Shown here: one piece after another, positions 3,831-5,601 of the stretch
How positions within the stretch are numbered: the first letter of the stretch is position 1
Layout: the number at the start of each line of letters is the position of its first letter
Source of the DNA: Bacteroidota bacterium
GTDB taxonomy: Bacteria; Bacteroidota; Bacteroidia; J057; JAJTIE01
Reading direction: 5' to 3'
Length of the DNA: 39,926 bases
NCBI GenBank assembly: GCA_021300195.1
Contig: JAJTIE010000048.1
Location: 1 to 39,926, forward strand
Notes under the pieces: generated by a model
Told to the model about the DNA's origin: nothing
Seen by the model: only the letters and a program-made list of their open reading frames with translations
Databases searched by the model: none
Program-made: the position numbers and the translations under genes

Positions 3831-4065
3831 TATCCACAGGTGCCCGGGTGCCACCCCGCCAGGCCGTAGTCGGCCTGGGCAGGTGGTACGAGGGAGAATA
3901 GGGAATCCCGTGAAAAGCGGGAGCTGACGCGCAACTGTAAGGGGCTGCCAGCGTACAGGCACACGGCCATTCGGCAGTGCAGCCGGGTTTTACTACTAAA
4001 GCCCCTGCCCATACCGGAGAAGGCGTGCCGTACGGGCCCCAAGCCAGGAGACCTGCCTGTGGATG
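3831..4065 (+). promoter_or_regulatory. Cobalamin (adenosylcobalamin) riboswitch aptamer
   Basis: The conserved aptamer core is present in order. GAATAGGGAA is followed by GTGAAA within a CCCG/CGGG hairpin (about 3896-3922), then GCTGACGCGCAACTGTAAG (about 3922-3941), and the B12-box AGCCAGGAGACCTGCC (4042-4057). The closing P1 stem is a perfect 9-bp match: ATCCACAGG at 3832-3840 with CCTGTGGAT at 4056-4064. The family binds coenzyme B12 and turns down expression of B12 uptake or synthesis genes. It points at the beta-propeller gene starting at 4243 on the same strand and lies antisense to the false upstream extension of thiC. Confidence 0.95.
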
Positions 4066-4101
4066 GAGAGACGGCCTGCGCGTATCGGGCGTCCGGTGTT
4101 G

Positions 4102-4167
4102 CTGCTGCGTAGTGGCAGGATGTGGCGGGTGCACCTGCCGTATCCTGCCCCGGTGTCCGTGCAGCAG
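4102..4167 (+). promoter_or_regulatory. Large hairpin between riboswitch and gene, possible expression platform
   Basis: Nested complementary segments form a long stem: CTGCTGC 4102-4108 with GCAGCAG 4161-4167, GGCAGGAT 4114-4121 with ATCCTGCC 4142-4149, and GGCGGGT 4124-4130 with ACCTGCC 4133-4139. No U-run follows, so it is not a classical terminator. It could act as a Rho-related or translation-control structure. Note that ACCTGCC also resembles part of the B12-box, which might allow alternative pairing. The role is inferred. Confidence 0.4.
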
Positions 4168-4242
4168 GCATGCGGGTGGCTATACAGCTGGGGCGTCGCG
4201 CTGGATGGGGCGAGCCATTGTTTCACCCAAATCATTTCTTTT

Positions 4243-5601
4243 ATGTTCACTTTTACCCTTGCTTCTCCACGCGCGTACCGATGGAGGGCTCATTTGGTTC
4301 CCTTTCTATTTTTGCTCCTGATGCTACCCGCTGGCAGGCTGCATGCACAGCCTGCGGGCCGCCTGTTCATCCTGGCCGAGGGCAATGGCAGCACCCCGGG
4401 CGAGGTAGGCCTGGTGCGCTACCCACAGCTGGCGTACCAGAAGCTATTTGAGCTGGAGGCCTATGGCAACGACCTGTATGTAGATACGGCCGATGCGGAT
4501 ACCACCTGGCTGTATGCCGTGGGGGGGATCCCCTTTGGGCAGGCCACACCCGGCAGCGTGTACATCTACAACCTGCGTACAGGCAGCATGGTGGATACGC
4601 TGAAGGACGTGGGAGCCCGCCAGCTGGCCTTCTGGGGCCAGTACCTGCTGGTGGCCGGCTATGGCAGCAGCAGGCTGGCTGTTTTCGACCGCGCCAACCA
4701 CCACCAGCTGGTGTGGGCCCTGGGGGCAGACAAGCTGGGCCCCGAAGCCGAGGATGTGTTCGTGCTGGGCAACTATGCCTATGTGAGCCTGCCCGGCAGC
4801 CTGGGCGATAAGGATAGCGTAGCGGTAGTAGACCTACTGGCCCAAGACACCCTGAAGACGCTGACGGTGCCGCACAATCCCCAGAATTTTGCCCTGCTGG
4901 CCAATGGCCAGCTGTGGCTGCAGAGCCTGAACTATGCCGGTGAGGGCCTGATCGTTACCCACATAGACACCCTGAGCAAGACCCCGGTGCAGATAGATAC
5001 CACGAAGATAAGCAGCTATGGAGGCTTTGCGCCCGATGGCAACCGCCTGCTGTTTACTGGCGAGCAGAACTTTAAGAGCCCCTATCTCCTTGGCTACACG
5101 CCTGCGTCGGAGCAGGTGGATACGCTGCTGCGCCCCTCCGGCTTTCCGCCACAGCTTGCCAGCCAGAATGTGTATGGGTTTGCCCCCTACTACCCGCCTG
5201 CGGCTGCCCCGCCACAGGCAGCTGCCGGTTTCATTCTTTCTTCCACCAATTTTTCCGGCGCAGACACCCTCTTTACCCTGGGCTCGGCCCCTACGCCCGG
5301 CCTGGTGGCGGCCCCCACGGGGGTGCGGCGCATGCAGTTTGTAGCCGATGCACCCCCCGGGGTAACCAGCCGCACACGGGCCAGCCACAGCCAGGCCAGC
5401 CCCTTCTCTTTCGGGCCAAACCCCACCACGGGTAGCCTGCGCATCTGGCTGCCGCAGGGCACTGCCGTGCAGGTGCACAGCCTGCAGGGGCAGCTGCTGC
5501 TGCGCGGCACGGCCCCCGTGCTAGACCTGGCAGCGCTACCTGCAGGCAGCTACCTGCTGCAGGCTGCGGGCTACCAGCCTGCCCGCCTGCTTAAGCAGTA
5601 G
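4243..5601 (+). CDS. Secreted beta-propeller protein with T9SS sorting domain, BtuG-like, under B12 riboswitch control
   Basis: The chosen ATG gives 452 residues and a signal peptide (basic start, hydrophobic core about 18-30, cut near AHA-Q type LHAQ at 33-36). Residues about 38-368 show short repeating beta-strand units such as YLLVAGYGSSRLAVFDR and YAYVSLPG, as in YncE/DUF5074-type propellers. About 330 residues would suit seven blades. Residues 386-452 are a type A T9SS C-terminal domain: GPNPTTGSLRIW, then GQLLLRG, LPAGSYLLQA and a basic end. The protein is therefore predicted to cross the outer membrane and be anchored to, or released from, the cell surface. In Bacteroides, BtuG is a surface beta-propeller lipoprotein that captures B12 and is riboswitch-controlled; here the riboswitch makes the same job likely. 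No lipobox and no neighbouring BtuB are present. B12 binding is an inference. Confidence 0.8.
   Translation: MFTFTLASPRAYRWRAHLVPFLFLLLMLPAGRLHAQPAGRLFILAEGNGSTPGEVGLVRYPQLAYQKLFELEAYGNDLYVDTADADTTWLYAVGGIPFGQATPGSVYIYNLRTGSMVDTLKDVGARQLAFWGQYLLVAGYGSSRLAVFDRANHHQLVWALGADKLGPEAEDVFVLGNYAYVSLPGSLGDKDSVAVVDLLAQDTLKTLTVPHNPQNFALLANGQLWLQSLNYAGEGLIVTHIDTLSKTPVQIDTTKISSYGGFAPDGNRLLFTGEQNFKSPYLLGYTPASEQVDTLLRPSGFPPQLASQNVYGFAPYYPPAAAPPQAAAGFILSSTNFSGADTLFTLGSAPTPGLVAAPTGVRRMQFVADAPPGVTSRTRASHSQASPFSFGPNPTTGSLRIWLPQGTAVQVHSLQGQLLLRGTAPVLDLAALPAGSYLLQAAGYQPARLLKQ

Follow-up and report, generated by a model that had tools for sequence, protein, structure and literature searches.

A cobalamin riboswitch and one gene for a BtuG-like seven-bladed beta-propeller make up a single-gene unit in the 39,926-nt stretch of Bacteroidota DNA that we analyzed (the window), and the same pairing recurs in relatives of this bacterium, whose genome needs B12. 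Surface lipoproteins capture B12 in gut Bacteroides, and many environmental Bacteroidota must also scavenge it. We assign the gene product (P0001) to a sister family of BtuG that is spread over Bacteroidia, rather than to BtuG itself. We propose that the riboswitch and this one gene together serve to scavenge B12: the propeller, exported by the T9SS, would bind corrinoid and hand it to a transporter encoded at another locus. On balance, we consider this proposal probable.

A single-gene unit behind a cobalamin riboswitch

The riboswitch lies at 3829–4069 on the + strand of the window (RF00174; cmscan score of 80.7 bits versus the gathering score of 31.5, E = 1.8e-18). The earlier note had called the aptamer complete, and indeed the match covers positions 9–184 of the 189 in the model; it includes the B12 box GCCAGGAGACCTGCC. 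This is the sole cobalamin riboswitch in the entire genome (2.67 Mb, 98.6% complete). About 20 nt 5' of the aptamer, by our reading of the sequence, TAAATTTG (3800–3807, + strand) matches TAnnTTTG, the consensus of the Bacteroidota sigma-A -7 box (PMC9723704). Equivalent boxes are found ahead of the riboswitches of two relatives, G001 (TATCTTTG) and G003 (TATATTTG). (A scan for E. coli-type promoters reported nothing in the region of the box at 3800–3807.) The leader between the aptamer and the start codon (4070–4242, + strand) does not fold better overall than shuffled sequences (z = -0.70). It contains a 16-bp hairpin at 4114–4149, without a U-run, which might have a regulatory role as the expression platform.

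The ORF list shows an open frame from 4063 to 5601. The ATG at 4063 is part of the aptamer, so we rejected it as the start in favor of the more credible ATG at 4243, which yields a signal peptide and coincides with the start of the nearest homologue. This gives a gene at 4243–5601 (+ strand) that encodes 452 amino acids. Downstream, at 5636–5659 (+ strand), our scan found a hairpin that resembles an intrinsic terminator (10 bp, of which 8 are G-C), followed by TTTTTGTTTT; shuffled sequences average 1.5 such sites in this region, so the support comes from the position of the hairpin and not from the count. The flanking genes are both oppositely oriented: thiC is divergent, and on the other side, an unknown ORF and then a K+ transporter are convergent. 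Given these orientations, the promoter-like box, and the terminator-like hairpin, the layout is that of a single-gene transcription unit. These neighbors also confirm that btuB does not adjoin the gene in this genome, as had been noted before. The accompanying claim that the propeller is "regulated alone" holds for the window but not as a general rule, as this is one of several arrangements in relatives.

About 190 nt separate the start of thiC itself (1774–3636, - strand) from the B12 riboswitch, and the window as a whole yielded no TPP riboswitch.

From the ATG at 4243, the translation begins with a Sec signal peptide (residues 1–36, 4243–4350, + strand; ...LLLMLPAGRLHA-Q), and the nearest homologue's start agrees with this. 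The signal peptide is free of cysteine, so there is no lipobox; nor is there any cysteine in the propeller. P0001 therefore lacks the lipobox that BtuG has. At the other end of the protein, residues 387–452 (5401–5598, + strand) weakly resemble a type A T9SS sorting domain, with scores that are below the cut-offs for both TIGR04183 (18.8 bits versus 23) and PF18962 (Por_Secre_tail; 14.8 versus 27). In homologues, the sorting domain clearly passes, with 46–56 bits (46.6 for G003 and 56.5 for G051). And for the two T9SS components that we considered, the host has genes at G000:C5: a PorU-like Peptidase_C25 (348.6 bits) and PorV (184.6 bits). Export of P0001 by T9SS is plausible on these grounds. 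Hence, from the original description of a signal-peptide propeller with a type A sorting domain, the signal peptide and the propeller stand, while the sorting domain is weak.

Relation of the propeller to BtuG

Residues 37–369 (4351–5349, + strand) are modeled as a seven-bladed beta-propeller that resembles BtuG. No Pfam family, including the propeller families, matched P0001 above its cut-off. We built an AlphaFold2 model (mb3946cfd2978) from ten aligned homologues, without any BtuG and without templates; BtuG structures may be in AlphaFold2's training data. The model has a pLDDT of 83 and shows seven four-stranded blades, with the last strand (326–333 in model numbering) closing blade one, which agrees with the seven blades that had been expected. 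When we compared the model to the PDB with Foldseek, 16 of the first 17 rows were BtuG1, BtuG2, BtuG3, or the BtuG-type protein 3DSM from B. uniformis (best E = 6.9e-14). With VIA-align, the first 11 rows were all BtuG (Z = 32.2 to 28.8), and the best was BtuG1 (Z = 32.2, rmsd 2.4 Å over 304 residues). The best non-BtuG row was the archaeal propeller 1L0Q (Z = 27.1); BtuK1 reached 26.2, and even unrelated 6-phosphogluconolactonases had Z over 25. So the comparison with BtuG structures, which the earlier note had suggested, favors BtuG, and BtuG leads the unrelated propellers by a small though consistent margin. Similarity of fold does not, on its own, demonstrate function.

Plain sequence searches did not link P0001 to BtuG. 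Comparing P0001 to the PDB with phmmer gave no BtuG match; a profile of its own clade found no BtuG chain in the PDB at E up to 1 (the best match was 1L0Q, with E = 2e-4); and the profile for PF16819 (DUF5074) did not match P0001 at E up to 1. The argument for homology comes instead from profile-profile comparison, the tree, and the fold. In hhalign, the propeller family matched a profile of nine DUF5074 proteins with a probability of 99.0 (E = 2.1e-18, 287 columns), and it matched the class-wide riboswitch-linked T9SS propellers with a probability of 99.8 (E = 2e-28). When compared to the PDB, the nine-protein profile finds BtuG1, BtuG2, and BtuG3 at E = 1e-52 to 1e-88, so these lipoproteins are of the BtuG type. 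Also, an HMM for the clade, made from six T9SS propellers and zero BtuG, matches many DUF5074/BtuG lipoproteins of riboswitch operons, at E = 1e-6 to 4e-16 with the search set scaled to 1000 sequences. (An iterated HMM was trained on its own hits, and we kept its E-values out of the evidence.) In the tree, a branch with support of 99/99 parts 22 of the 23 T9SS propellers, including P0001, from all 36 of the DUF5074 proteins; the odd one, from L169, has a very long branch. By these sequence comparisons, the T9SS propellers and the DUF5074/BtuG lipoproteins are homologous sister families.

The proposed relation to BtuG is thus upheld, with hhalign E = 2e-18, but the idea that P0001 is a BtuG whose lipoprotein anchor was swapped for T9SS export is not. 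The propellers form their own clade beside BtuG (99/99), and the two types coexist: several genomes have both within a single operon, and the host has a separate DUF5074 lipoprotein.

We also compared the B12-binding pockets. The ligand-gripping loop of BtuG2, which PMC10404256 gives as Asn54–Thr64, falls at NEGNFQYSNAT if the PDB sequence is numbered from Cys32. This loop aligns with an AEG motif in P0001 and with NEG in most of its near relatives. VIA pairs residue 3 of the model with residue 47 of BtuG2 (8BMY); if ungapped, this places BtuG2's residue 54 at the alanine of AEG, which agrees with the sequence alignment. In BtuG2 numbering, P0001 retains Glu55, Gly56, Arg133, Glu180, and Tyr316. 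Tyr335 is replaced by phenylalanine, as in 22 of 36 BtuGs, so the aromatic residue is conserved. Asn54 is replaced by alanine, and three asparagines that are conserved in BtuG are absent (Asn84, in 36/36; Asn107, in 34/36; and Asn108, in 33/36). Trp194 and Trp272 are not retained either, but these are not general even within BtuG. (Residue numbers for P0001 from this alignment, such as Ala45 and Glu46, are the alignment script's own count.) P0001 has a net charge of -9, and the charge is negative in all of its relatives, as it is in BtuG2. Overall, the BtuG pocket appears to be partly conserved, which neither proves nor excludes binding of B12.

Riboswitch-linked propellers in relatives and the host's B12 economy

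We sought homologues of P0001 in 100 relatives by sequence, independently of riboswitches. The nearest homologue (G001, from the same family, 40% identity) has the same layout: a -7 box, an RF00174 riboswitch (100.1 bits), a leader, and a signal peptide. In G001, G003, and G051, RF00174 immediately precedes the gene for the homologue. RF00174 is within about 3 kb upstream of 4 of the roughly 12 propeller genes that were found by sequence, versus 0.004 expected (using gene counts per genome that were entered by hand). So in independent genomes, linkage is about 1000-fold above chance, and we rejected the explanation that the propeller is a chance neighbor of the riboswitch.

As had been anticipated, T9SS propellers lie behind the same aptamer in other genomes. 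In the order, at least 7 of the 16 riboswitches have one in their operon (the window, G001, G003, G004, G012, G013, and G021). In the class, they are present at 12 of 60 loci (10 intact and 2 split or cut by the end of a contig); we picked these 60 loci ourselves for their high riboswitch scores and took no more than two from most families. btuB is missing from the operon at 5 of the 10 loci with an intact propeller. In five genomes, the propeller is a solo unit behind the genome's single riboswitch (the window, G003, G154, G044, and G170). btuB is linked to the propeller in G012, G051, L141, L146, L158, L134, and L143, although not in the host, and some of these are btuB-btuG operons. For instance, the operon in G012 has the riboswitch, BtuB, a DUF5074 lipoprotein, and the T9SS propeller, and the operon in G051 has the riboswitch, the T9SS propeller, a T9SS protein, BtuB, and DUF5074. 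At L134, the riboswitch is followed by BtuB and the T9SS propeller, without BtuG, so the propeller takes BtuG's usual place beside btuB. Within the order, riboswitch linkage is absent for more than half of the clade, including members in G004, G011, G013, G015, G019, and G020. No cobalamin riboswitch was found in the genomes of G011, G019, or G020, and in G011 and G020, where we checked the neighbors of the propeller genes, these were unrelated to B12.

Other riboswitch loci that we came across are described here for their own sake. At L057:3681-6548 (G004:C1), the first gene behind the riboswitch encodes a 955-amino-acid protein that joins propeller matches to a T9SS tail and to domains of the Big_9 and cadherin-like types; it is an enlarged form of the riboswitch-T9SS propeller architecture. 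Two other genomes of the order have a solo secreted protein of 430–450 amino acids behind a cobalamin riboswitch (L049:3389-5063, G001:C70; L061:3330-4869, G002:C5). These two proteins are 27% identical to each other, begin with QNLVPNPxF, match CBM_4_9 weakly, are rich in Cys and Trp, and have no family name; they could be an unnamed B12-related family. (A structure model of this type of protein, A7, had a pLDDT of 45 and was too poor to interpret.) In many operons, a T9SS-tailed protein of about 330 amino acids, with the motif YAPAxGxxGTxAxxKDSxxFxxWA, lies between the riboswitch and btuB/DUF5074 (L051:9820-10812, L127, L130, L131, L139, L158, L161, and L176). It matched no Pfam family beyond the T9SS tail, and it is likely another accessory B12 protein. 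Finally, L125 (G199) and L159 (G156) have cobalamin riboswitches before non-uptake genes; the riboswitch at L159 precedes ORFs of 793 and 157 amino acids, which resemble, by eye, an anaerobic ribonucleotide reductase and the matching activase.

The host genome encodes MetH, methylmalonyl-CoA mutase, and IcmF, and CbiC was not found in it, so corrinoid probably has to be imported. The strongest candidate for BtuB in the host is a TonB receptor at G000:C3, which scores 72.8 + 57.9 bits on our A4 profile; its best NCBIfam match is TIGR01779, at 76.6 bits, far under the cut-off. On the A4 profile, the BtuBs encoded in the operons of G012 and G051 reach about 900, but both contributed to this profile; the BtuB of G003, which is not in the profile and which lies away from its riboswitch, scores 396. 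The host also has a BtuC-like permease (C18) and just one DUF5074 (BtuG-type) lipoprotein, beside porU and porV (L074:5928-6980, - strand; G000:C5). According to the genome-wide RF00174 scan, none of these btuB-like, btuC-like, or DUF5074 genes has a cobalamin riboswitch.

Proposed role and comparison with known systems

We infer the following sequence of events. The cobalamin riboswitch would permit expression of the mRNA when B12 runs low inside the cell, and B12 would repress it; work on B. theta has established this direction of regulation for riboswitches of this kind (PMC6143338). P0001 would cross the inner membrane via its Sec signal, T9SS would take it over the outer membrane, and it would stay on the cell surface or be released. 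Outside the cell, the BtuG-like propeller would bind corrinoid, which would be handed to a TonB-dependent transporter that is encoded elsewhere.

We also considered that P0001 might be a surface propeller under B12 control without being a B12 binder itself; it might partner or cap a TonB transporter, or act as a vesicle or surface factor. Control by a riboswitch is not in itself proof of binding: in B. theta, BtuK1 binds B12, but neither BtuK2 nor BtuL, which are also from B12 operons, bound cobalamin in an assay (PMC12751083). A role like that of BtuK2 or BtuL would fit with the loss of several polar residues that are conserved in BtuG and with the presence of a DUF5074 lipoprotein alongside the T9SS propeller in several operons. 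However, in the solo units no other B12 protein is co-regulated that the propeller could assist, and part of the BtuG2 pocket is retained, so this explanation seems unlikely to us. Another idea, to which we give a slim chance, is that the ligand is related to free B12: cobinamide, other corrinoids, or protein-bound B12. BtuG2 binds several corrinoids and makes no contact with the lower ligand (PMC10404256), and the changed residues in the pocket of P0001 could mean a shifted specificity, but nothing in the sequence points toward any particular alternative. Finally, it seems very improbable that a generic T9SS propeller (an adhesin, or a binder of sugars or lactones) is behind the riboswitch by accident. 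Propellers are structurally alike, as the Z scores of 6-phosphogluconolactonases illustrate, and most members of the clade in the order lack riboswitch linkage. But the linkage far exceeds chance, BtuG is clearly first in the fold ranking, and some homologues are within btuB-btuG operons.

If our proposal of a corrinoid-binding propeller is correct, then it may extend beyond this genome. We see an even chance that Bacteroidota at large have T9SS-exported, corrinoid-binding propellers that are sisters of BtuG and lack a lipid anchor, and that some of them are the sole riboswitch gene, so that capture is regulated but transport is not. The recurrent pairing of riboswitch and propeller suggests a second, secretion-based route for capturing B12, and environmental Bacteroidota seem to use a parallel, T9SS-exported set of proteins in their B12 regulons. 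The window illustrates a riboswitch that controls a putative binder alone, with the transporter elsewhere. If these proteins bind B12, they would represent a further mode of micronutrient capture (T9SS-exported, and surface-linked or released), and many proteins annotated as "T9SS sorting domain-containing" would gain a testable function.

Our literature search, which had most subscription papers outside its reach, found no T9SS-exported relatives of BtuG, and the papers on BtuG, BtuH, BtuJ/K/L, and DUF4465 that it did find deal mostly with Bacteroides; this absence is not proof of novelty. The closest known system is BtuG itself (BtuG1/2/3 of Bacteroides; PF16819, DUF5074; PDB 3DSM, 8BMY, 8BLW, and 8OKV; PMC6143338, PMC10404256), which is likewise a seven-bladed propeller. 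The two share homologous sequence, control by a cobalamin riboswitch, the NEG loop (AEG in P0001) and some contacts, and, in relatives, btuB beside the gene. P0001 differs in that it has a T9SS tail and no lipobox, belongs to the sister clade, does not match PF16819, has a partly conserved pocket, does not adjoin btuB, and is a putative binder of B12. BtuK1 (of the pair BtuK1/BtuK2, BT_1486/1487 of B. theta; PDB 9S6C) also combines a propeller fold with a B12-riboswitch operon, but BtuK1 and BtuK2 are lipoproteins, and their structural similarity to P0001 is below BtuG's. With type A T9SS cargo (TIGR04183 / PF18962), P0001 has in common the Sec signal and, putatively, the C-terminal beta-sandwich, although its tail is below the cut-offs. 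Last, the lipoproteins BtuH (PMC8941943) and BtuJ/DUF4465 (PMC12751083, PMC13398666) are not of the BtuG-propeller type (BtuJ is a beta-jelly-roll), but they too are encoded at riboswitch loci and serve as accessory proteins that bind B12 at the cell surface, a role that we propose for P0001.
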